Source: Bacteroidia bacterium
Lineage (GTDB): Bacteria > Bacteroidota > Bacteroidia > 2-12-FULL-35-15
DNA length: 64,000 nt
Direction of reading: 5' to 3'
Assembly (NCBI GenBank): GCA_030654175.1
Contig: JAURXZ010000001.1
Coordinates: 1 to 64,000, forward strand
A program made the translations under genes and the position numbers. The first letter of the stretch is position 1, and every line of letters starts with the position of its first letter. Shown here in pieces: positions 4,023 to 60,661 of this stretch. Below the pieces are notes generated by a model. That model did not search any database. It saw only the letters and a program-made list of their open reading frames with translations, and had not been told where the DNA came from.

Positions 4023-4592
4023 TTAAATTTCATCTATAGATTTACGTTCATTTGTTTTCAATTTTTGATATTCTGTTTTTGACATCCCCACTATTTCTTT
4101 GAATTGCATAGAAAGATGCTGTACACTTTTATAGCCTAAGCGATAAGCAATTTCAGAAAATGTTAATTCTTCATATTCCATAAATTCTTTTGCTTTTTCA
4201 ATTTTTTGCAGAATAAAATACCTTTCAATTGTAATTTTTTTATGGCGTGAAAAAGCTTTGCTCAGATATGGATAAGGCTTACCGATGACTTCTGCCAGGT
4301 ATATAAAAGTTTTTTCATTTAATAATATTTCAGGCCGGTTATTTATTATGTCCAGCACTGCTATTTTAATTAATTCAACCAATTGCTCATCTTTTTTCAT
4401 AATGATATCAAACCCGTTTTTTTCTAAAACTTTCTCAATGGAATTACTGGTTATAAAAGGCGAATCTATATAGGTAGCTTTCCCCAACTTTACTTCAATC
4501 ACCTGTAATCCCAATGCCTTTAACTCGTCAGTTACAACTTTGATGCACCTGGGACATACCATATTTTTAATATGAATTGCGGTTTTCTTCAT
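4023..4592 (-). CDS. HMA-domain AraC-family regulator (metal-responsive)
   Basis: This 189-residue protein joins an N-terminal heavy-metal-associated domain (residues 1-65) with Met-x-Cys-x-x-Cys as MVCPRC (Cys13, Cys16), to a C-terminal AraC-type double helix-turn-helix (about 90-180: YLSKAFSRHKKIT, then FSEIAYRLGYKSVQHLSMQF). HMA CxxC sites bind Cu(I), Zn or Cd. The AraC part binds DNA and usually activates transcription. It is the last gene of the minus-strand run, beside a multicopper oxidase and an RND remnant, so it is the obvious candidate sensor of the island. A direct metal-sensing link between the two halves is inferred from domain order; no operator could be identified by eye. Confidence 0.85.
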   Translation of the reverse strand: MKKTAIHIKNMVCPRCIKVVTDELKALGLQVIEVKLGKATYIDSPFITSNSIEKVLEKNGFDIIMKKDEQLVELIKIAVLDIINNRPEILLNEKTFIYLAEVIGKPYPYLSKAFSRHKKITIERYFILQKIEKAKEFMEYEELTFSEIAYRLGYKSVQHLSMQFKEIVGMSKTEYQKLKTNERKSIDEI

Positions 4593-4605: not shown

Positions 4606-4858
4606 CTATTTCGATTGTTTGCTTTCTAAATATTTCTGTAATGCTTTCTCTCCGAACAGGTGAAACACAACAGGTGTTACAATTATGTCAAGAAGCGTTG
4701 AACTTAATAAACCACCAAGAATAACAGTTGCAACGGGATAAAGAATTTCTTTACCTGGAGGCATTTGAAAGAATAGGAGGCATATTATTAAAGCTCGCCA
4801 AAGGGGTGCCACAAGAACAATTACTAATCTTTCGAGGAGTTCTCTTATTACCATACTT
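4606..4858 (-). pseudogene. C-terminal remnant of a CzcA/CusA-type RND permease
   Basis: The last ~35 residues (PGKEILYPVATVILGGLL, then LLDIIVTPVVFHLFGEKAL) are almost identical to the C-terminus of the intact permease at 16264-19386. Upstream of Pro-Gly-Lys-Glu the frame is scrambled: the LERLV block is present, but the transmembrane stretch that follows reads sensibly only after frame changes. Everything before about base 4858 is missing. This is a relic of a third RND permease, left between the regulator and the multicopper oxidase. A functional 82-residue membrane peptide is possible but unlikely. Confidence 0.8.
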
Positions 4859-9159: not shown

Positions 9160-12100
9160 TTACTTTACAACAACAAATTTAGAAGTAGCATGAACAGCGC
9201 TCCCATCGACACTTACAAGATAAGTACCTTTCGGAAATTCATCAGTTGAAATTTGTATTTTTTGATCTCCGGAATTTAATTTCCCTGCTTTAATTGTTTT
9301 TGCTAATTTTCCTTCCAGATTATAAATAGAAATAGTTACATCGGTAGCTGATCCTAAATTAAACGTGATAGTACCACGTTCGTTCATAGGGTTAGGATAA
9401 ACAGTGATTCCAGAGTTGCTTGTTGATTTAAACGCATTAGCACTTGCTTCATTAATACCAACTGCACCTAAATAGCTTTCACTTTTCCAGGCCCCGCGGC
9501 CATGTGTAGCTGCATATATAACAAATGGATTATATACTTCGTTGCCGTCACGTCTTTGCTGACGGATTTTAAATACAGGTACATTTGGAAACAATCCGGA
9601 TGTTCCGTTTTCAGAACTCCACACAGGGTTTGTCACAGTAATATCAGGTGTAGAAAAAACACCGGATTCTGTTCCAACAATTAAACGTTTTGGGTCATTT
9701 TGTTCGATCAGCACTGTATAAACCGGCATAGCAGGTAATTTATTGGCACCAGAACCTTGTTTTTCACTAAAATTGGCAGTTGTGATAGAAGCAGGACACG
9801 TAGCAGCTGTAGTAGAATAATACACATGCGTAGGCGTTCCTGTTCCATAACCTCCTAATGAAACAGCCACTTTATTTGCATCTGTAGGATGTACAGATAA
9901 GCCCGTAATAAAATTTCCGCTGAAACCGGCAATTTGAGTTTTAACAACTACAGTGTTAGGGCTTGCCACATCACCATTAGCTGAATCAGTAATAGCTGCT
10001 AAATTTGAAAATCTATATAAAGTACCGGAAGAAGTTCCAACATATAAAATATCTCCGTCAGCTGACCAAGCAAGCTCTTCAGCTTCTCCTGAAAGTGTTC
10101 CAAGCTTCACCCAAACCGGAGTGCCTGAAAAATTTAAAGCGCCTTTTGTCATCCAAACACCATTGGCACCATTAAACCCAACAGCAAGTTTTGCCTGGAA
10201 TGGGTCAGGTACCATTAACGTATCACCAGGTTCAATTTGCGAGGTAGGGGTAAAGTTCAAAGGGTAAGCATAATCTGAACGTGTGATGCTAATATCTGAA
10301 CCCGAAGCATAGATCACATCAAATGATAAATTTACTGTCGATCCGATTGAAGGAGGAGTGTTAAAATAAAAATCAAATGCACCGGTAATATAGTTAATAG
10401 AATTGGTTTTAGTGATATCAACAGATCCGACAAGCGTACCAGATCCATTATCAGTAACAATTTGCAAACCGGAATTAAATGAAATAGAATCAGGTACAAT
10501 AGTAGCTGAAGGATATGGCAACGTTAAAATGCCTGTAAAATTTTTCTTAATTCCATCACCTATTCCCACCATTTGTGATACAGGTTGATTAATAAACGTA
10601 TAAAAATCGGGACTATTGGTTGCCGTTTTTGTTTCATACAAAGCTATAGGTGTAACAAATGATGCAAAACCCGATTCTCCTAAAGTAGGAAATAGAGAAG
10701 CAAACTTATCAGGATAAAAACTGTTGCCATAAGAGCCTTTGGCTGAAGTACGACTTAGTGAACCATAGTATACCGTAGTAAATGATACATTCGGACTTAA
10801 AAAAGATATTTCACTTTCAAATCCATCACCACCCCCAACTTGTTCCGCTGATTGAGGAGTATTCCCATGTCCGCTCACATATTGAGTTCCATTATCTTGT
10901 GCTCCGGAAATAAAACCTATTCTTCCCGGATCATCGCCTTCAAAAGCAATTCCATAGAATTGCATTACGTTATAACCATTGTTCATAGGTTGATAAACAA
11001 TGCTATTATTGCCGAAACCACTACCAGTATATCCTCTAAAAACACCACCATCATTACCTATATAAAAAACATCCGGATTAGTAGGATGAAATTTAAAATC
11101 ATGCACATCGGAATGAACATAATAAGGGTTATTAGGGCCTCCTCCTTGATTTGCAGCTAAACTCCACTGGCCAATACCCGGAACAGAAGGGTTTGTTTGT
11201 TTCCATATCCACATACCAACACCACCAACAATGATCCTGGTTTTATCGGATGGAAATACACCAATAGCATTATCATAATCAGACTGTCCTGTTCCGAACA
11301 TTTCAAATTGTGAACTGCCTCCATTTCCAATTGTAGCCCATGTTAAGCCTTTATCAATAGATTGGTATACTCCTAACAATAAGCCATTAGATGATTTACC
11401 TGCTAAGGCATACATATAATTTGGATCGCTTGGAGCTATGGCAAATTCAATCCGACTGACACCATTGGAAGGAAGGCCGGCCGTAACAAGCGCAAAAGTA
11501 CCGGAATCACCGGTAGTGGACCGGTATAGCTTGTTATTAATATTGGCTATAACAGTGCCATCGCTTGCTACATCAACATCCAGGGCAGTATTAGTATTGG
11601 CACTTCCATTATTCTGACGGATAGGGTGAGCCCATGTTAGTCCACCATTTTCAGATGATCGCAAACCATATTTGGTTGCTGCATATATTCTGTTTGCATT
11701 TACAGGGTCAGTGCCTAATTCGTGAACAGAACAAAAAGCTGTTGCAGCAGAACCACTGCTATTGTTTAGCGAAGTTGGAATTGTAGAGGCAATTCTTGAA
11801 AACGTATTACCACCATCCGTTGATTTATAAATACCTGCCCCTAAAATACCTGCTGAACCCGAACCGGTATAAAAATAAAAATCACCTTCACCTGTACCTG
11901 CGTAAATATCTCCATTTGCAGCTTGCGCAAGAGAAACAACAGCAAGATTGGGTTGTTGATCAAAACCCGCAACATTGCTCCAGTTAGAACCTCCATTGTT
12001 TGAAACCCATAAACCACCGGAAACACTACCGGCAAACATTTTATTCGGGTTGTTTTTATCAATTAAGATCGCCCTTGTACGTCCTCCTACATTATCAGGC

Positions 12101-16263: not shown

Positions 16264-19200
16264 TTAAAGTTCCTTCGATTGTTTACTTTCTAAATATTTT
16301 TTTAATGCCTTCTCTCCGAATAGATGAAACACAACGGGTGTTACAATCATATCAAGAAGCGTAGAGCTTAATAAACCGCCAAGAATAACAGTTGCAACAG
16401 GGTAAAGAATTTCTTTACCGGGAGCATTTTTATCAAGTGTGAGTGGAATTAATGCTAAAGCAGCTACCAATGCAGTCATCAATACAGGCACTAAGCGCTC
16501 CAATGATCCGCGAATAATCATTTTTTTATTAAATTGTTCACCTTCATGTTCTACAAGATGGATGTAATGCGAAATCATCATAATGCCGTTTCGTGAAGCA
16601 ATTCCCGTAAGTGTTATAAATCCAACTAAGGATGCTACAGAAAAAACTCCACCTGTAAGCATTACTGCAACAACGCTGCCTATTAATGCAAGTGGAATGT
16701 TCAACATTATTTGCAATACCATTGGAACAGATTTGAAATGCGTATAAAGAGCGAGGAAGATGCCAAGGAATGAAAAAACACTCAGTATCAATATCAGTCT
16801 TGATGCCGATTTCTGACTTTCAAACTGACCACCATAAGTAATATAATATCCCTGCGGTAAAATAAGTTCCGTTTGAATTTTCTTCTGTATCTCTTCCACG
16901 GTGCTTCCTAAATCACGCCCTGCAACATTGCAGGACACAGCAATTCTTCGCTGCGTGTTTTCATGGTTAACTGTATTGGGACCGTTCTCAAAATAGATAT
17001 CTGCCACTTCCTTTACAGGAATTAACTGACCAGTGGGGGTTTCCATTAAGGCTTGCTGGATAACTGAAATGTCATTGCGCTGGTCTTCCGGTAATTTCAA
17101 AACAATGTCAAATCTTTTTCGCCCGTCAAGCAATTGCGAAACAGGTTCTCCCTGAAACAGTGTTTGTAAATCACTCACTACATCACCACGCTTCATTCCG
17201 TAAAATTTTAGCATGTCCTCTTTCACCCGAATAAGTAATTGTGGAACCTGGGTTTGTTTTTCTACTTGCAAATCAACTACACCGGGCACTTTTTCAATGA
17301 TTGATTTCATTTGAACAGCATATTTGCGAAGCTCCATTAAGTCGTTACCGAATATCTTAATCGCAACCTGGGCACGCACCCCTGAAAGCAGATGGTCTAA
17401 ACGATGGGATATTGGCTGGCCTATATTTACATTTGCACTTTTTATATTTGAAAGTTTATCACGTACATCATTCAGAACTTCATCTTTTTTACGATTGCTT
17501 TTTGAATAATCCAAATCTACTTCTACTTCCGAATTGCTCACAGGTTCGGCATGTTCATCCAGTTCAGCACGGCCAGTTCGTCTGGACACATAAGTAACCT
17601 CCGGGACTTTTAATAATTGTTTTTCAGCTACCGTTCCTATCCGATTTGATTCATCAAGAGAAGTTCCGGCAGGTGTTGAAAAATTTATTGTTAAAGATCC
17701 TTCGTTGAAAGGGGGAAGAAATTCTGTTCCAAAAAACGGTATAAGTGAACATGCAATTACAAACAATATAATTACTGTAGCGACTATTTTTTTAGGACGA
17801 TCTAAACCCCAGTTAAGTAATTTTGTATCCTGTTTTTTCAGCCAACGAACTAACCAACTGTCTTTTTCTTCCTTGTCCATTAATTTCATGTTGGGCAGCA
17901 AATAATAACACATGGCAGGGGTTACAGTTAATGAAATTACCAGTGATGACACAATGGAAGTAATATATGCAACGCCAAGTGGTGCGAATATTTTCCCTTC
18001 CATTCCGCTTAATGAAAAGAGAGGAATAAAAACAAGAACAACTATAATAGTTGCATACACAATGGAATTCCTCACCTCACTGGATGCATCATAAATTACA
18101 ACTAATGGATTTCGCGGATTGGGTAGGTGGCGGTTTTCACGCAAACGCCTGAAAACGTTTTCCACATCCACAATGGAATCGTCCACTAATTCTCCGATAG
18201 CAATGGCAAGGCCACCAAGTGTCATGGTGTTTATGCCAACACCGAGCCATTTGAAAACAAGAGCAGTTATGATAAGGGAAAGCGGAATGGCTGTAAGTGA
18301 AATTAGTGTGGTGCGGAAATTCATTAAAAATAAAAAGAGAATAATAACCACCAATATAGCACCATCACGTAATGCCTCTTCCACGTTGGTGAGAGATGAT
18401 TCAATAAAATTAGATTGTTTGAACAAATCGGGATTTAGTTTTACATCTTTTGGAACAGAAGCTTGCAATTCTACTAATGCTTTTTCCACTTGAGCGGTTA
18501 AATCAATAGTGGAGGCAGAGGGTTGTTTTTCAACCGATAAAATAACGGCAGGTTTACCATTTACGCTTGCATCGCCACGTTTGAATTTTGCCCCGAACTT
18601 CACATCCGCCACTTGCGAAATAAGAATGGGAGTATTATCCTTATATCCTGCTACAATATTTTCAATGTCCTCAACACTTTTTAACCGTCCTAAATTTCTT
18701 ATTAACACTTCGCTTCCCTGGCGGTTAAAGAAATTTCCGGTGGTATTGAGATTAGACTTTTGAAGTGCTTCTTCAACGTTTCTGATGCTAAGTCCGCTGG
18801 CTTTTAATTTTGGTAAAGAAATAAGCACCTGGTATTGCAGCACATCACCTCCGATAGGAATTACCTGTGCAATTCCTTTAATTGAAAGAAGACGTTGCCG
18901 AATGGTGTAATCGGCAAGGGTGCGAAGGTCGGCAGGAGAGGTGCTGTCGGCTGAAATACCAACGAGCATTATCTGACCCATTACAGAACTGATGGGACCA
19001 AGTACCGGAGTAATACCCGGAGGTAAAGCACTTTGTATGCTTTGCAATTTTTCAGAAACGATTTGCCTTGCTTTAAGTATGTCGATAGAATAATCAAACT
19101 CAACAAACACCAATCCCAGCCCAATTGCCGAATTGGAACGAACAGCTTCTACACCAGTAGCACCATTTAATGCTGTTTCAACAGGATATACAACCAGTGC

Positions 19201-19386
19201 TTCCACTTCCTCGGGAGCCATTCCGCCAGCTTCAAGAAAAATAGTTACACGCGGGCGATTTAAATCGGGTAGTACATCAACCGGTAAATTTATTGCGGTG
19301 TATGTTCCGCCAATCATAAGGATTACAGCAATTGCCATTACTAACAGGCGGTTGTGGAGCGAAAAATTTATTATTTTATTTAGCAT
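16264..19386 (-). CDS. CzcA/CusA-type heavy-metal RND efflux permease
   Basis: Full-length, 1,040 residues, starting MLNKIINFSLHNRLLVMAIA. It has the RND layout: TM1, a large periplasmic loop, TM2-6, a second loop, TM7-12, with GRAELDEHAEP in the second loop and a YPVATVILGGLL C-terminal helix. TM4 reads GELVDDSIVDVEN. The second Asp and the Glu of the proton relay known from CzcA are kept, while the position of the first Asp (DFG in the other pump here) is Ala. This marks a different subfamily from the pump at 60682-64000. No adaptor or outer-membrane partner is adjacent; those at 32897-34027 and 39348-40535 lack a permease and may serve it. Substrate ion not determinable. Confidence 0.88.
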   Translation of the reverse strand: MLNKIINFSLHNRLLVMAIAVILMIGGTYTAINLPVDVLPDLNRPRVTIFLEAGGMAPEEVEALVVYPVETALNGATGVEAVRSNSAIGLGLVFVEFDYSIDILKARQIVSEKLQSIQSALPPGITPVLGPISSVMGQIMLVGISADSTSPADLRTLADYTIRQRLLSIKGIAQVIPIGGDVLQYQVLISLPKLKASGLSIRNVEEALQKSNLNTTGNFFNRQGSEVLIRNLGRLKSVEDIENIVAGYKDNTPILISQVADVKFGAKFKRGDASVNGKPAVILSVEKQPSASTIDLTAQVEKALVELQASVPKDVKLNPDLFKQSNFIESSLTNVEEALRDGAILVVIILFLFLMNFRTTLISLTAIPLSLIITALVFKWLGVGINTMTLGGLAIAIGELVDDSIVDVENVFRRLRENRHLPNPRNPLVVIYDASSEVRNSIVYATIIVVLVFIPLFSLSGMEGKIFAPLGVAYITSIVSSLVISLTVTPAMCYYLLPNMKLMDKEEKDSWLVRWLKKQDTKLLNWGLDRPKKIVATVIILFVIACSLIPFFGTEFLPPFNEGSLTINFSTPAGTSLDESNRIGTVAEKQLLKVPEVTYVSRRTGRAELDEHAEPVSNSEVEVDLDYSKSNRKKDEVLNDVRDKLSNIKSANVNIGQPISHRLDHLLSGVRAQVAIKIFGNDLMELRKYAVQMKSIIEKVPGVVDLQVEKQTQVPQLLIRVKEDMLKFYGMKRGDVVSDLQTLFQGEPVSQLLDGRKRFDIVLKLPEDQRNDISVIQQALMETPTGQLIPVKEVADIYFENGPNTVNHENTQRRIAVSCNVAGRDLGSTVEEIQKKIQTELILPQGYYITYGGQFESQKSASRLILILSVFSFLGIFLALYTHFKSVPMVLQIMLNIPLALIGSVVAVMLTGGVFSVASLVGFITLTGIASRNGIMMISHYIHLVEHEGEQFNKKMIIRGSLERLVPVLMTALVAALALIPLTLDKNAPGKEILYPVATVILGGLLSSTLLDMIVTPVVFHLFGEKALKKYLESKQSKEL

Positions 19387-19411: not shown

Positions 19412-20671
19412 TTAGGAATTAGGTACAGCTTCTTTTGCGATTTTTTCCATTATTAAATGATTGTCTCCGAGCTTACAAAGTGCATCACAATGCTGCCTTA
19501 AATCAGAAAATAAAATGTATTTAATTTTGACTTTGTTATTTCTTATAGCAGGGCGTGAGAGCTGCAATTGAACATCTTTCTCCCTGCTGTTTGGGGCTAC
19601 GAGGTATAGCACTTCATCACCGCCAGCAATTGTATAGGACAAGTCGGTAAGCCTCAATATACCGGAATAAATACTCGTAGATTTTTCTACTTCAAATGCT
19701 GCAATAACATTGTTAGTGCCTTTTTGAAACCATAAAACATCAATCAGCTTAATAGTTGTTGCTGTATCAGCATCTATATTTACTTCAGGAAATTTTGGTA
19801 AGCACAGGAACGAAAAATTATTTCCGTTAAACGATCTCGACTTGTCATTAGAAGCACAAATAACATCGTAACCTAATGCGTTCCCTATTTTAAGCAGATG
19901 GTATTGCATTTCGGAATGCAGGTTTTCATCTTCTTTTTCAGTCTTAATATCCTTATGGCGTTTTTCCATAAGTTTTTCAAGTTTATTTCTTTCAGTTTCA
20001 GATAAATACTCATCGCCTCCTATGACTAATTTTTGCATTCCTATCTCGAAAAGCAAACCTGCTATTGCACCTAAGTCGTTGGACAATTCCGATTTGTGCG
20101 CATTGTTTTTTTCAACCAAGACCTCCCGTATTTTTAAATACTCCATCCATGAGCCTAATTTTTTCTTGTCTTTGAATAAATAGTTAAAACCATTAATAAT
20201 AGCTGTATTGAAAGGAGGTATAATGGTTGGATGTAAAAAATAAAGAATACTTGCCACAGCGGGGCCAAGTCCTTTAATTTTCAGTGCATCGAGTTTCAGT
20301 ATTTCTTTTATAATCTGTTCCTCTGTTTTGGCATTCATGCAGTTTTCTAAAAATTGTCCGAATGCCTGCTTGTTTTGTTGGTTCTCATAAATATCAGGAA
20401 TCCTCAATTTAGGTTTCCAGTAAAACGGATGCGCAGCTCCTACAAACACTTGCTTTTGTTCAGATATGCAGGTCAAAACAAATTCCAAGGAAGATCCCTT
20501 AAAATCATTTGGAAATTTGTTGCTCTTTATATCTTCAATAACCTGGATAACGCCTCTGCGGATGGAGCGAAATGCTTTCAGCCTTTCATCATTGTTAATG
20601 AACCAGGTATTGTAAACCGATTCTTTATCGGATTTATATTGTTTGATGATAGGTTCGAGATTATTACTCAT
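19412..20671 (-). CDS. Putative nuclease-like protein: HhH-glycosylase-like plus PD-(D/E)XK-like domain
   Basis: This 419-residue cytoplasmic protein has no signal. Residues ~100-215 look like a helix-hairpin-helix DNA-glycosylase-type fold: [12 protein letters not shown] (130-141) is a good HhH, followed by IIPPFNTAI where active HhH-GPD enzymes have the Pro-x-Asp-Thr catalytic Asp; here it is Asn155. A charged helix (225-250) leads to a C-terminal domain (250-410) with IDVLWF (Asp311) and [10 protein letters not shown] (Glu327, Glu329, Lys330), the spacing seen in PD-(D/E)XK-type predicted endonucleases. Role unproven: restriction, repair or another DNA-processing function. It sits alone among metal and T9SS genes with no methylase beside it. 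Confidence 0.5.
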
Positions 20672-25827: not shown

Positions 25828-26475
25828 TTATTTTACAGCTTTATATAATGTTAATGTTCCAAAGATGGTGGAGTAATTTTTTTTAATTTCTACTTTTTTA
25901 AAACCAGCAATTTCGATATATGCGGGCAATAAACCCTTTACGTTATCATTTGTAGTTTCAAATCCATCCAGAATTTGAACGAAGAAGAAAAGGGAACGCA
26001 TTAAAACAGAAGAAGCTTTACCCCAATCAGCTATATGCAATTCTCCGTTAGGCTTAAGTACACGCTTTATCTCAACTAAAGAATTATGTTTCTGTTGAGC
26101 AGTCAGGTGATGAAATACAAGGCTTGTCAAAACCCTATCAAAGCTGGCGTTTGAGTATGGCAATTTCACTCCATCATACTTAGTAACGAATATCATTGCT
26201 CTTGCTTTTTTTATTTTTTTATTTGCAATTTCCAATACTTTTTCGTCAACATCCACTCCATTTACTTCTGATGAGGGGTTAGTATCCTTTATCATAAGGG
26301 AAAGGGTAGCAGTTCCTACTCCAAAATCCAACACTTTATGATTTTCTTTGATGTTTGCCTGTCGCACCAATTCTGTTTTAAATTCTTTTTCAGGCATAGT
26401 AACACGAATTAGCGGGTTATAAAACCGTGTAAGCCATTCGTATTTTAAAGCGGGTATGTATTTTGTTGAGTTCAT
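25828..26475 (-). CDS. Class I SAM-dependent methyltransferase
   Basis: The product has 215 residues. Motif I is VLDFGVGTATLS, motif II is GVDVDEKVL, and the post-II acidic motif YDGVKLPYSNASFDRVLTS with the motif LKPNGELHIADWG match the UbiE/MenG-like Rossmann methyltransferases. The substrate cannot be read from sequence; small molecules, quinones or lipids are all possible. It is the first gene of the methyltransferase / Cys-rich protein / M43 protease operon. Confidence 0.85.
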   Translation of the reverse strand: MNSTKYIPALKYEWLTRFYNPLIRVTMPEKEFKTELVRQANIKENHKVLDFGVGTATLSLMIKDTNPSSEVNGVDVDEKVLEIANKKIKKARAMIFVTKYDGVKLPYSNASFDRVLTSLVFHHLTAQQKHNSLVEIKRVLKPNGELHIADWGKASSVLMRSLFFFVQILDGFETTNDNVKGLLPAYIEIAGFKKVEIKKNYSTIFGTLTLYKAVK

Positions 26476-27843: not shown

Positions 27844-29340
27844 TTAACTGATTTTAAAATTTAACATCATACCGCTGTCTTCATGCTCAAGGTTATGGCA
27901 ATGCAACACAAACTTTCCTTTGTTTTGTGGGAAGGTCATAATTACTCTTACCTTTTCCTGTGGCATAACCAGCACAGTATCTTTCCACCCTTTCTCTGTG
28001 GCAATAAGTGTATTTCTTCCGCCTGTTCTGTCCAATACCTGAAACTGAACCCCGTGAATGTGCATCGGATGAATTTCATCACCCATTGAATTATCAAACA
28101 CCCATATTTCTGTTGAACCTGCGGTTACTTCTTCGTCAATCCTGTTTATATCGTATGATTTGCCGTTTATAGTGTGCATACCCGCCATTGAACCCATGTT
28201 TCCCATTCCTCCCATATTCCCCATACTTCCCATATCCATTCCTGCAATATCAAATGTGCGGGTTTTGCTTGCAGATGTTTGCGGTATAGGATTAATTACA
28301 GAAAGAGTTGCAGGAACAGTGAAGGGGGTTGTTTCACTCTTGGAAACCGTAAATTTCATTATCTGAAATGACTGAGTTCCCTGAACAACTCCATTGCTGA
28401 ATGTGTTACTTTGCAAGTATATTTCAGTACCAAGAGAATAATTTGAAAAGTTGACTAAAATATCAGCCCTTTCTCCGGGCGCGAGCAACAAGCTGTTTAC
28501 ACTTTCTGAAGTGTTCAGCAAACCACCATCTGCCCCAATCACATAAAAGCTGGCACTATCGCTTAACGCAAGATTGTATATCCTGGCTGTTGAACCATTC
28601 AGCACTCTCATACGATAGAAACGTTTAGCCACATTGCTATAAGGAGCATACACACCATTCACCAATACATACTGGCCAAAATAACCAGTCATAACTTCGC
28701 CACTAGTTGGAGAGTAATTCAGACTGTAATCGGAATAAATTCTTTTATCCTGGATCACCAAAGGAATTTCATAATCATTATCGGGTAAATTCAAACTGGC
28801 CTCTTCAGCATCATTAACGATGAACATTCCGGCCAGTCCCATAAACACCTGGTGCGAAGTTTTTCCGTGTGGATGTGGATGATACCAGTATGTACCGGCT
28901 CTCTGATTAATTTGAAAATTAAAATTAAAAGAGCTTCCCGCCTGAACTATATTTTCAGGATGTCCATCCATACTAGCAGGAATAAGCAAACCATGCCAAT
29001 GTATATTTGTTTCTTCTGATAAACTATTTTGAAAAGTGATGTTTGCATTTTCACCATTCATCATTTTAATGGTTGGCCCGAGAATACTTTCATGGTATCC
29101 GAATACCCTTGTCGTTTTTCCATTTAGTATGGATGCGGTTGTTGATTTGGCTGTAAGGGATGGGTTTTTCACAATAGCAGGAATAGGCAAAGGGGTATCA
29201 AAAGATCCTTCTAAAACGGATACACTTTTACCCATGTCCATTTTATCTTTTTTACAGCTTTGTAATAGCCAGCCAATACCACCAATAGCGGTGAATGCGG
29301 TTGTAGTACTGGCCAGTTTAAGAAAATGTCTTCTTCGCAT
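27844..29340 (-). CDS. Multicopper oxidase (CueO/CotA-like), Tat-type lipoprotein signal
   Basis: The product has 498 residues. The N-terminus has a twin-Arg-like MRRRHFLK, a hydrophobic stretch, and Cys29 in LLQSC, so it may be a Tat-exported lipoprotein. All four copper ligand motifs are present: HWHG (114-117), HPHPHG (154-159), HPMHIHG and HCHNLEHEDSGM at the C-terminus. A short Met/Gly loop (GMDMGSMGNMGGMGNMGSMA) precedes the third motif, as in copper-handling oxidases. Predicted role: Cu(I) oxidation in the periplasm. It is independent of the oxidase at 4869-7265, lacks the CopB-like tail, and is followed by a barrel protein. A receiver gene lies only 9 bases upstream. Confidence 0.88.
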   Translation of the reverse strand: MRRRHFLKLASTTTAFTAIGGIGWLLQSCKKDKMDMGKSVSVLEGSFDTPLPIPAIVKNPSLTAKSTTASILNGKTTRVFGYHESILGPTIKMMNGENANITFQNSLSEETNIHWHGLLIPASMDGHPENIVQAGSSFNFNFQINQRAGTYWYHPHPHGKTSHQVFMGLAGMFIVNDAEEASLNLPDNDYEIPLVIQDKRIYSDYSLNYSPTSGEVMTGYFGQYVLVNGVYAPYSNVAKRFYRMRVLNGSTARIYNLALSDSASFYVIGADGGLLNTSESVNSLLLAPGERADILVNFSNYSLGTEIYLQSNTFSNGVVQGTQSFQIMKFTVSKSETTPFTVPATLSVINPIPQTSASKTRTFDIAGMDMGSMGNMGGMGNMGSMAGMHTINGKSYDINRIDEEVTAGSTEIWVFDNSMGDEIHPMHIHGVQFQVLDRTGGRNTLIATEKGWKDTVLVMPQEKVRVIMTFPQNKGKFVLHCHNLEHEDSGMMLNFKIS

Positions 29341-44098: not shown

Positions 44099-46132
44099 TT
44101 AAAATTTCATCTTTTGTATCCGAATCGCATTTAATATTGCCAGCAGAGCTACGCCAACATCAGCAAATACAGCTTCCCACATAGTAGCCAGTCCTCCAGC
44201 ACCCAAAGCCAATACAATAACTTTTACACCAAAAGCTAATGCTATATTCTGCCATACAATCCGTTGGGTAACTTTGCTGATTTTAATGGCAGTAATAATT
44301 TTGGAGGGTTGGTCGGTTTGTATTATTACGTCCGCAGTTTCAATAGCTGCATCACTACCGAGAGCGCCCATGGCTATACCCACATCGCTCAAAGCAAGAA
44401 CAGGAGCATCGTTTATTCCATCACCAACGAAAGCGATAACCCGATGACTTTCCTTTTTCAAGTCTTCTACTTTCTGTACTTTCTGTTCAGGTAATAAACT
44501 GCCATAAGCATTTACAATATTCAATTCTTTAGCTATCTTATCTACAACGCTTTGTTTATCTCCTGAAAGCATTACAATTTTTGAAATCGTTTGGTGCATC
44601 TGTGAAACTGCCTCTTTTGCATCTTCTTTTAATTCATCAGCTATGGTAATGTACCCTGCATATTGGTTATTTATTGCGGCAACTACAATGGTGTCCGTTA
44701 TCGCATCAACTTCTGCCGGATAAGCTACATTGAATTTTTTTAACAGTTTGGTATTCCCCGCTAATACTTCCGAACCTTTATAAGTTCCTTTTAATCCATG
44801 TCCTGAAATTTCTTCTACGTTGCTTACCGGAACATCTTTATCTTTTCCGTTCGCATATTCAACAATCGCTTTTGCAATAGGATGGGTTGACTGGGATTCA
44901 ATGGCTGCAACTATTGCCACAAATTCATCTTTAGAATGGCTTACTGCATTTACTTCCTGGACTTTGAAAACACCTTTGGTCAACGTTCCTGTTTTATCCA
45001 TTACAATGGTGTTTATCTTTGTCATCAGGTCAAGATAATTAGAGCCTTTAAACAAAATACCATTTCGTGAGGCAGCTCCTATTCCTCCAAAGTATCCGAG
45101 CGGAATGGAAATTACCAATGCACAAGGACAGGAGATAACCAAAAAGATGAGCGCCCGATACAACCATTGCGAAAACACATACTGATCCACAAAAAAGTAA
45201 GGGACAAAAGTCAACACCAAGGCTAATAAAACCACTATCGGAGTGTATATTTTTGAAAATTTACGAATAAATAATTCCGTTTTCGCTTTGCGTGAAGTAG
45301 CATTTTGCACCATTTCCAAAATTCGTGCAAGTGAGCTTTCTGCAAATACTTTAGAAACTTTTATTTCTACTACCTTATCGAGATTAATCATTCCCGCAAG
45401 AACAGTTTCACCCTGTTTCAGTGTATTAGGTTTGCTTTCACCTGTCAAGGCAGCTGTATTAAAAGAGCTTCCAGCAGATTGCATTACACCATCCAATGCT
45501 ACTTTTTCTCCTGCTTTTACTTGTATGATCTCGTCAACCTTCACTGTATCAGGTGCAACCTCAGTTAATGTACCATTCCGTAATACCGTGGCTTTGTCGG
45601 GGCGTATATCAAGCAATGCTTTTATACTTCGTTTCGCACGGTTAACGGCTGCGGTTTGGAATAGCTCGCCAATAGCATAGAACAGCATTACTGCCACGCC
45701 TTCGGGGTATTCTTTTATGCCGAAAGCTCCAATAGTCGCAAGGCTCATAAGAAAAAACTCTGTAAAAAATTCTCCTTTGCGTATCGCTTGTACGGCTTCT
45801 TTTATTACCGGAAGACCAACAGGTAGGTATGCAATTACGTACCAAACCAAGCGTACATAGCTTTTAAAGAAATCTGCTTTTACGTAATTGTCGAATATAA
45901 TACCCAATAAAAGCATTGTTAAACTAATAGATAAAGGCAGGTATTGTTTCCATGCTGCTCCTTCAGAGCTTTCATGCTCATGATCGTGTCCATCGCCCTC
46001 CGTGTGCTGATGTTTGGGTTTAATCAATTCCGCAGCATTCGCATTGGTATAGATTTTCTCCTCCAGCGTACAGCAGGTCATATTGCCTTGTGCATCGTAG
46101 GTGTGCTTATGGTTGGAAGCTTTACTTATCAT
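44099..46132 (-). CDS. Zn/Cd/Pb-type P1B-ATPase
   Basis: The product has 677 residues. The P1B signature CPC is at 335-337 (SCPCALV), the phosphorylation motif DKTGTLT has Asp379, an HP motif is in STHPIAKA, and the hinge is GDGINDAP. The last membrane region has Lys followed by FADVG, as in Zn/Cd exporters of the ZntA class, rather than the Met/Ser pattern of copper pumps. There is no HMA domain; instead the N-terminus has a Cys pair (MTCC) and a His cluster (HQHTEGDGHDHEHE). It exports Zn, Cd or Pb from the cytosol. It lies 35 bases downstream of an MFS gene. Confidence 0.92.
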   Translation of the reverse strand: MISKASNHKHTYDAQGNMTCCTLEEKIYTNANAAELIKPKHQHTEGDGHDHEHESSEGAAWKQYLPLSISLTMLLLGIIFDNYVKADFFKSYVRLVWYVIAYLPVGLPVIKEAVQAIRKGEFFTEFFLMSLATIGAFGIKEYPEGVAVMLFYAIGELFQTAAVNRAKRSIKALLDIRPDKATVLRNGTLTEVAPDTVKVDEIIQVKAGEKVALDGVMQSAGSSFNTAALTGESKPNTLKQGETVLAGMINLDKVVEIKVSKVFAESSLARILEMVQNATSRKAKTELFIRKFSKIYTPIVVLLALVLTFVPYFFVDQYVFSQWLYRALIFLVISCPCALVISIPLGYFGGIGAASRNGILFKGSNYLDLMTKINTIVMDKTGTLTKGVFKVQEVNAVSHSKDEFVAIVAAIESQSTHPIAKAIVEYANGKDKDVPVSNVEEISGHGLKGTYKGSEVLAGNTKLLKKFNVAYPAEVDAITDTIVVAAINNQYAGYITIADELKEDAKEAVSQMHQTISKIVMLSGDKQSVVDKIAKELNIVNAYGSLLPEQKVQKVEDLKKESHRVIAFVGDGINDAPVLALSDVGIAMGALGSDAAIETADVIIQTDQPSKIITAIKISKVTQRIVWQNIALAFGVKVIVLALGAGGLATMWEAVFADVGVALLAILNAIRIQKMKF

Positions 46133-59296: not shown

Positions 59297-60661
59297 TTAA
59301 TGTTGGTGTCCTTCACCTTTGTTGCTCATTTTAGCTAAAATGAAAAATGCCCCATTTACAACTACTTTGCTGTTAGCAGGAATTTCTTTGAGCAAAGTAA
59401 TTTCACTATAACCGACATCTGTTGTGCCTTTGCGAACCGGAATTTTCTCAAATGTCATTTCACCTTCTTTTGGTTGTTCTTTCTTTTCTCCTTCAGCGTG
59501 AGCATGTCCGTGTTCATCATGCTTGTCAGTGCTTTTTGCATCTGCATGTTCTTCTTTTTCGCCTTCAACATGTTTGTGTTCCGCTTCTCCATTTTCTTTC
59601 TCTCCTTCAGCATGATGTTCTTCTTCACCGTGCTCATCTGTAACAACGAAAATAAAATCCTGTCCTTGTAAACTGACAATAGCATCAGTTGGCACAGCAT
59701 CAACGGTGGGATTTTCTAAACTTACCAATGCCGTAATACTCATCCCATCTATCAATCCTGTTTTATCGCCTTCTACCTGAGCGTGGACAGCAATAGCTTT
59801 TGTGTTTTCTTCAAAAGTGTTGCTGATGCCATAAACCTTTGCATCGTATTCTTTTCCCGCATTATTGGTAAGTGTAAAATGTATCGTCTGACCTTCTTTA
59901 AGCTTCGTCAAATCTTTTTCATACACATATAAATCCAAATGCAATTGGCTATTGTCCACGATTTCGGCTATGTTGGTGTTAGCATCTATGTTGCTTCCAA
60001 TGTTAACCAAAACGCTGCTTACAGCTCCACTAATAGGACTGGTTATATTCAATACCGAAGAAATGTTGTCGCTGGTAAGTGTTGTAGGATTGATACCAAT
60101 TAATTCTAATTGTTTCTGCAAACTCGATTTTCGTGCTTTTAGTCCCTTGATTTCGGCTTCACTTTGTTGCAATATTTTTAATGAACCGGCATTCCCCTTG
60201 TTCAATTCTTTCTGCCGTTCAAATTCTATTTGTGCCAAATCTGTTTTAGCCGACACAGTTAAGAATTCTTCCTGTAAAATAATAAACGCAGTATTTCCAA
60301 TGGTGGCAATAGTTTGTCCTTTAGTAACAGTATTGCCGGGTTGAACTAAAATAGTTTTTACAACTCCGCCAAGTAATGATGTTGCGCTTGCTTTATTTTG
60401 GTTTGGCACTTTCAAAATTCCGTTGGCTTTAAGCGAAGCGGTCAGTTGCTTTTTTTCAATGCTTCCCAATTGCATTTTGATTGATTTCATTTGTTCTGAA
60501 GAAAGTGTAACCGTGCTTTCGTTTTCATCGTGACCTCCTCCGTGTTCTTCGTGTCCCCCTTCTTCGTGACCTTTTTCCTTACCGGAAGTAGCATCACTTC
60601 CACAAGATCCAAAAAACATTGCTGTTGCAATTATTGTTATAACTATTATGAGATTTTTCAT
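59297..60661 (-). CDS. CusB-like RND adaptor with His-rich insertions
   Basis: The product has 454 residues. The lipoprotein signal ends FFGSC (Cys20), followed by GHEEGGHEEHGGGHDENE. Adaptor parts are VVKTILVQPGNTVTKGQTIA and ITSPISGAVSSVLVNIGSN around an alpha-hairpin, with YVYEKDLTKLKEGQ after them. A second His/Glu/Lys-rich insertion (about 350-405; GEEEHHAEGEKENGEAEHKH) interrupts the membrane-proximal domain and is unusual. The fusion permease gene lies 20 bases upstream and both belong to one pump. The His insertions probably gather periplasmic metal for efflux. Confidence 0.88.
   Translation of the reverse strand: MKNLIIVITIIATAMFFGSCGSDATSGKEKGHEEGGHEEHGGGHDENESTVTLSSEQMKSIKMQLGSIEKKQLTASLKANGILKVPNQNKASATSLLGGVVKTILVQPGNTVTKGQTIATIGNTAFIILQEEFLTVSAKTDLAQIEFERQKELNKGNAGSLKILQQSEAEIKGLKARKSSLQKQLELIGINPTTLTSDNISSVLNITSPISGAVSSVLVNIGSNIDANTNIAEIVDNSQLHLDLYVYEKDLTKLKEGQTIHFTLTNNAGKEYDAKVYGISNTFEENTKAIAVHAQVEGDKTGLIDGMSITALVSLENPTVDAVPTDAIVSLQGQDFIFVVTDEHGEEEHHAEGEKENGEAEHKHVEGEKEEHADAKSTDKHDEHGHAHAEGEKKEQPKEGEMTFEKIPVRKGTTDVGYSEITLLKEIPANSKVVVNGAFFILAKMSNKGEGHQH

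Follow-up and report, generated by a model that had tools for sequence, protein, structure and literature searches.

A CopL-family protein of copper-resistance islands with a predicted glycosylase-fold domain joined to a predicted restriction-type nuclease domain

The protein P0001, encoded next to a heavy-metal efflux gene in the window (the whole 64-kb stretch of DNA analysed here), is with a probability of about 85% a member of the CopL family. In this family, a HhH-GPD-fold domain lacking the usual catalytic residues is fused to a PD-(D/E)XK nuclease domain related to type II restriction enzymes, and the genes stand free of methylases as a regular part of copper/heavy-metal islands. Computation yielded the two folds, showed that two Ogg-type catalytic positions have been lost while the nuclease residues are invariant, and revealed strong purifying selection and linkage to metal genes. 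The gene is present in a single copy in the source genome, and its product has a two-part layout, with the HhH-GPD-fold domain in front and the PD-(D/E)XK domain at the rear:

19412..20671, minus strand: CopL-family gene (P0001), complete ORF with an ATG start, 419 aa
20027..20671, minus strand: N-terminal domain, residues 1-215, predicted HhH-GPD DNA-glycosylase fold, nearest Ogg2
20249..20281, minus strand: helix-hairpin-helix [11 protein letters not shown], residues 131-141, with A138 at the Ogg catalytic Lys position
20198..20218, minus strand: PPFNTAI, residues 152-158, with N155 at the catalytic Asp position of HhH-GPD enzymes
19415..19936, minus strand: C-terminal domain, residues 246-419, predicted PD-(D/E)XK restriction-endonuclease fold
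19730..19744, minus strand: IDVLW, residues 310-314, with D311 as predicted metal-ligand Asp (106/106 homologues)
19673..19699, minus strand: AFEVEKSTS, residues 325-333, with E327, E329, and K/H330 as predicted nuclease active site

The alignment behind these assignments comprised the 106 homologues of at least 380 aa; shorter ones, such as L008, L009, L010, and L096, were left out, the last being a Lactococcus copy with a broken frame. L001 denotes the window gene itself. Residues G134, G136, P137, N155, T156, I158, H252, and Q256 are invariant in all 106 homologues, as are D276, D311, E327, E329, S336, G337, R340, and D343, and the motifs quoted for P0001 are therefore not a product of chance. 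P0001 had no match in Pfam or NCBIfam, where some of its homologues gave only sub-threshold or unrelated matches, and phmmer against PDB chains returned no credible match for it. Viral spike fragments proposed by a profile search (E 7e-4) were rejected as chance matches, the stretches of the top one scoring E 1.3–1.5 on their own and the likeness amounting to a local helical resemblance. The best PHROGs match (E 0.0047 across 56 residues) was disregarded as well, and Foldseek against viral models gave no match at E 0.001. Two scans of viral contigs were likewise negative. The full-length AlphaFold2 model, built from 68 sequences, reached a mean pLDDT of 82.9 and a pTM of 0.55. Since the Z values obtained in fold comparison did not exceed 8, the fold assignments given below lean on the consistency of the match lists and on the motifs.

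The metal-resistance context within the window is made up of the following genes, in addition to one for a heavy-metal-binding-domain protein:

4023..4592, minus strand: AraC-type regulator (HTH_18), matching the AraC-type regulators of CopL loci L002, L145, and L146
4869..7265, minus strand: multicopper oxidase (CopA-like), three Cu-oxidase domains, TIGR01480 E 1e-124, below the curated cut-off
16264..19386, minus strand: CusA/CzcA heavy-metal efflux RND transporter, TIGR00914 829 bits (cut-off 701)
27844..29340, minus strand: multicopper oxidase (CueO-like), from family-model matches
44099..46132, minus strand: heavy-metal translocating P-type ATPase, TIGR01525 545 bits (cut-off 346)
59297..60661, minus strand: CzcB/CusB-type periplasmic adaptor, from family-model matches

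The CopL gene lies 25 bp upstream of the CusA/CzcA gene on the same strand. A sequence-only reading of this DNA had taken it for a possible solitary factor, a view contradicted by this arrangement and by the recurrence of CopL in copper/heavy-metal resistance islands. An 82-aa ORF at 4606-4854 (minus strand) duplicates the C-terminus of CusA as encoded at 16264-19386; the multicopper oxidase gene is thus adjoined by what is left of another cusA-like gene.

The genome collection contained 154 loci with a relative, of which the best 80 were analysed, and any of ten core metal families was present within ~8 kb at 70 of these best 80 of 154. For the comparison with controls, 40 genomes were drawn from the same best 80 loci: 37 of 40 CopL loci carried at least one of 12 marker families (three or more at 27 loci, none at 3), as opposed to 0 of 40 control stretches of the same genomes, each a 17-kb stretch (two were shorter) around a HhH-GPD gene. 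The 12 families had been picked from the neighbours of plasmid loci (L002, L003, L005, L091, L093, L094, and L096) and not from genome loci. The corresponding Fisher value of 2e-19 overstates independence because the 40 genomes are related and mostly belong to Bacteroidota. The nearest neighbour was on the same strand as CopL at 69 of 77 loci on the upstream side and at 62 of 77 on the downstream side. The commonest cluster of neighbours, found at 55 loci, has a representative in which the heavy-metal-binding motif CSMHP...CPICGM was read, as in CusB-like adaptors. No CopY-type operator was detected within 250 bp upstream of CopL at four Gram-positive loci (L091, L092, L095, and L096).

Among plasmids, 179 of 72,556 records harboured a CopL relative (65 from Enterococcus, 15 from Sphingobium, 10 from Listeria, and others). 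Twenty-five of the 179 were examined, picked by eye for genus spread and not at random; sequence markers derived from the window were present at 18 of these 25 loci versus 0 of 15 control stretches, the latter taken from distant parts of five of the 25 plasmids. According to annotation, read by eye, 21 of the 25 loci had a named heavy-metal or copper protein, and the control stretches had only an Nramp transporter, an iron-export gene, and an ArsR-type regulator. Two further loci (L142 and L147) showed only DUF305-type genes or an Nramp transporter, and no metal gene was annotated near CopL in L144 (Acidovorax) and L148 (Methylocystis). General stress genes were noticed at L140, L141, and L144 (Hsp20, PsiE, NhaA; polyphosphate kinase 2; acetate kinase and a phosphoketolase-like gene), and their position beside or instead of metal genes suggests a wider stress-island niche for some plasmid loci. 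On the Hymenobacter plasmid L146, a second gene annotated as restriction endonuclease directly follows CopL (9299-10495).

Overall, the CopL family accompanies copper/heavy-metal resistance across phyla, recurring in metal-resistance islands of Bacteroidota, Firmicutes, Proteobacteria, Actinobacteria, Deinococcus, and Cyanobacteria. Closer to the source genome, 5 of its 59 relatives had a match, two of them nearly full length, and among 395 genomes from the window's phylum, a profile of the rear domain matched 31, roughly half of which owed the match to full-length CopL. In three genomes, a fragment that matches just the first 36-42 codons of CopL and contains a stop was seen ~2.3 kb upstream of the intact gene (G062:C39:7709-7834, G072:C2:36886-36993, and G096:C99:59402-59509).

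Such a distribution might also be that of a gene that rides along on mobile metal islands or helps to maintain them, acting in transfer, recombination, or stabilisation and having no metal-stress role of its own. The plasmid carriers are indeed often conjugative (84 of 179) or mobilizable (39 of 179), and PD-(D/E)XK folds are also known in mobile-element proteins. We regard this explanation as improbable, given that CopL was also found on contigs of 4.3 and 5.6 Mb (L062 and L049), that its flanking genes vary widely while the metal genes recur, and that no constant transposase partner was seen among the CopL loci.

The name of the family follows from a Cupriavidus plasmid: C. metallidurans CH34 carries on pMOL30 (180704-181969) a full-length homologue with 43% identity to P0001. 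Published work gives an antisense start 'in copL' at 181,548 (PMC7563307), a start labelled copL at 181,983, which is 14 bp upstream of Rmet_6120 (PMC9045368), and the gene order copHQ; copL <-> copOFGJ (PMC11647585), which fits the pMOL30 annotation. The pMOL30 coordinates together with these printed starts and the gene order identify the family as copL (Rmet_6120 of the cop1 cluster). The factor of an "undescribed type" of the sequence-only reading thus turns out to be a gene already named in the C. metallidurans cop1 cluster, whose counterpart in the C. gilardii cop cluster is labelled 'type II enzyme restriction' in PMC12029693. The label printed for copL in PMC7563307 is 'cys-rich cytosolic protein', which is not borne out by the 5 Cys among the 421 residues of CH34 CopL. 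The published expression data do not agree. PMC7563307 presents copL and copE as the two cop1 genes without up-regulation under acute copper and counts the copL start site among those with a motif common to cop promoters. With a mix of metals, PMC11647585 lists copL among the cop genes that are up-up-regulated, and CopL is one of the cop1 products that a proteome study did not find (PMC11647595). A literature search, with most subscription journals outside its reach, found no functional study of copL or CopL. The proteins called CopL in papers on Xanthomonas or Rhodobacter are presumably different ones.

The front domain modelled alone with AlphaFold2 (44 sequences) had a pLDDT of 85.4 and a pTM of 0.84. 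VIA-align placed residues 1-215 of the full model on Ogg2 8-oxoguanine glycosylases (3knt, Z 7.4 over 166), and the domain alone gave the same leading structure with Z 7.7 across 163 residues at an rmsd of 4.5. All 50 of the 50 matches listed for the domain alone were HhH-GPD glycosylases, Ogg2 leading, while the best Foldseek match was weak (mouse OGG1, E 0.2). The models support a HhH-GPD fold nearest Ogg2 for residues 1-215 of P0001, with Z values under 8. The HhH-glycosylase-like front half proposed earlier from the letters alone is therefore upheld by the fold of the predicted structure and by the invariance of its motif residues in the 106 homologues. The Asp-to-Asn exchange noted in PPFNTAI likewise proved general, the GPD Asp position being Asn (N155) in 106 of 106 homologues as placed by motif register. 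At the position of the Ogg catalytic Lys (138), placed in the same way from the GxGxK motif of Ogg2 proteins, Ala is found in 98 and Ser in 8 of the 106 homologues, and Lys in none. Comparison of the CopL family by hhalign with 10 Ogg2 sequences (10 of 20 Ogg2 loci gave a usable ORF) yielded a probability below 1%, i.e., sequence homology was not detected. The correspondences of A138 and N155 are consequently by motif register, without a statistically supported alignment, and the proposed recognition of lesions depends on a fold with Z below 8. In the genome set, the positions of the CopL family were absent from the places matched by PF00730, and G000 gave no match to PF22175.

Loss of the catalytic Asp is in itself no proof of silence. 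In the crenarchaeal Sis-HhH-GPD, Ser152 replaces the Asp, and the enzyme is nonetheless active, using Glu134, according to PMC11754123. By this analogy, CopL could be an unusual but functional DNA glycosylase, for which the Asp is dispensable. The second Ogg-type catalytic position has been lost in CopL as well, with Ala or Ser in place of Lys throughout the alignment, which makes a working glycosylase very improbable.

For the rear domain (residues 246-419), VIA-align gave the fold of Nt.BspD6I as the best match (Z 8.0, 143 residues, rmsd 4.0), followed by FokI (6.8), EcoT38I (6.7), and EndoMS (6.5); Foldseek with the full model found EcoT38I as its best, weak match (E 0.003). The nuclease signature of CopL reads D311-x15-E327-V-E329-(K/H)330, and because position 330 holds Lys in 91 of the 106 homologues and His in the other 15, the pattern is ExE and not a plain (D/E)xK. 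A PD-(D/E)XK fold with an invariant predicted acidic site (D311, E327, and E329) is thus supported by the model for residues 246-419. The sequence-only reading, which had suggested a PD-(D/E)XK-like rear half and named structure prediction as a check, was right about the fold and needed correction in the motif; models and fold comparison support both of the folds it proposed. The PADLOC model REase_II matched 37 of 37 members (best E 2.2e-15), with the match in P0001 spanning the rear domain, and many CopL homologues are annotated as type II restriction endonucleases.

Both the PADLOC matches and the annotations speak for the main rival explanation, namely that CopL is a solitary restriction enzyme, either a methylase-free type II or a modification-dependent type IV one, guarding metal islands or their hosts against phage or rival DNA, whereby the silent glycosylase domain would read a modified base or a target sequence. 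Further points in its favour come from relatives of the rear domain that have no HhH domain. At 5 of the 17 such loci examined (L171, L172, and L188-L202), a methylase, read by eye from its motifs, adjoins the nuclease-domain relative or is fused to it: an N4/N6-type methylase at L172, C5-methylase-like ORFs at L191, L193, and L194, and, in L202, a DPPY methylase motif sharing one open frame with the FEVE nuclease motif, which is likely a fusion of a methylase with a nuclease related to the rear domain of CopL. No methylase motif was recognised at the other 12 loci, within ~2-3.5 kb for 11 of them and 17 kb for L171.

The surroundings of CopL itself argue against restriction. No PF01555 or PF00145 methylase was located within 10 kb of any of 43 full-length CopL copies in 40 genomes, positions being compared by eye, and the nearest one lay ~15 kb away (G097). 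The earlier statement that no methylase lies beside the gene accordingly agrees with what was found in these tested surroundings. The steady company of CopL consists of metal genes and not of defence genes, and for seven further ORFs of the window PADLOC gave no match. Moreover, none of 50,697 phage records contained a relative. The ORF at 25828-26475 (minus strand) encodes a UbiE/CpaM-like small-molecule methyltransferase and no DNA methylase; a similar-looking ORF occurred near CopL at 9 of 77 loci.

The rate of protein evolution, which is very slow, also counts against a restriction enzyme. Pairwise dN/dS was ~0.02-0.10 in both domains wherever a positive value was computable (8 pairs with 16 domain comparisons, one with a dN of zero and one without a value). 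Across phyla, sampled pairs showed 40-67% identity for CopL (10 comparisons) and 32-47% for copper P-type ATPases (10 comparisons), the ATPases not being established as orthologous. CopL is thus under strong purifying selection, and in the sampled pairs its conservation between phyla is similar to that of copper P-type ATPases. Greater divergence would be expected of a defence enzyme engaged in an arms race, and we infer that the slow evolution of CopL is easier to reconcile with DNA in general as its substrate than with a contest against phages. The restriction explanation is the foremost of the alternatives and a close rival, somewhat less probable than the explanation preferred below.

Another explanation would assign CopL to the metal regulon as a regulator that binds DNA or as a protein that organises the genome, with a nuclease fold that binds but does not cut. 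It draws on the position of the gene inside cop clusters, including the 25 bp separating it from cusA in the window, and on a CxCC motif (around residue 111 of P0001) present in 15 of 106 homologues (L004, L005, L093, L094, L095, L098, L139-L144, and L148-L150). The holders are the Proteobacteria, Actinobacteria, and Deinococcus members, and the motif is a possible metal site in that branch. However, P0001 and the Firmicutes members are devoid of CxCC, many islands already have regulators of their own, and all predicted nuclease catalytic residues are invariant, which would be unexpected for a mere binder. A regulatory role is therefore improbable.

Our best guess, held tentatively and at somewhat less than even odds, is that CopL may act on copper-stressed DNA as a nuclease directed by lesions or by structure. 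The front domain would grip and kink DNA at lesions or distorted sites arising from copper stress, with oxidised bases, abasic sites, and adducts as candidate targets, and would excise no base; the rear domain would then nick or cut beside the site, opening the lesion to the cell's own repair. In favour of this reading are the folds, the residue patterns of both domains, the linkage to metal genes with neighbours mostly on the same strand, the slow evolution, and, for copL, the response to a metal mix and the cop promoter motif. Against it speak the lack of copL up-regulation under acute copper, the failure to find CopL in the proteome, the undetected homology to Ogg2, the loci lacking metal genes or markers, the restriction-like relatives of the rear domain, and the negative search for a CopY-type operator. 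DNA binding, lesion preference, cutting, and a role in copper survival are the parts of this proposal that we infer from the computed features. Bacterial copper resistance is usually explained by efflux pumps, oxidases, and metal-binding proteins that sequester the ion, and an incising CopL, if true, would extend metal resistance by an arm that protects DNA. The broader statement that copper-resistance islands of at least six phyla carry a DNA-processing enzyme of their own is somewhat more doubtful still. In it, a lesion reader derived from a glycosylase and no longer excising bases would guide a restriction-type nuclease, and damaged sites would be incised instead of excised. The association of CopL with a copper ATPase from Bacteroidota to Enterococcus plasmids would suggest either that copper toxicity strikes DNA, which the islands must then shield, or that a restriction enzyme has been turned to a new use. 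As copL sits in a well-studied C. metallidurans cluster, the question is directly testable.

Compared with known systems, residues 1-215 of CopL share the predicted HhH-GPD fold with the Ogg2 enzymes MjOgg and TmOgg (3knt Z 7.7, 3fhf 7.0, 3n0u 7.0, and 3fhg 6.3). Ogg2 possesses the catalytic Lys and Asp where CopL has Ala/Ser and Asn; unlike Ogg2, the CopL front is fused to a nuclease domain, and its sequence homology to Ogg2 is undetectable by hhalign. Fission yeast Mag2, solved on abasic/damaged DNA, is also among the fold matches of the front domain (4b23, 4b22, 4b21, and 4hsb; Z 4.9), and it is not known to have glycosylase activity or a nuclease domain. With the type II restriction endonucleases Nt.BspD6I, FokI, and EcoT38I, CopL has the predicted rear-domain fold in common; it differs from them in its glycosylase-like front, its metal-island company, and the lack of a methylase partner (PF01555/PF00145) in the 43 copies. 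The nearest described counterpart, CopL of CH34, has the CxCC motif and His at 330, neither of which occurs in P0001, and shares with it the same conserved residues and a similar neighbourhood.
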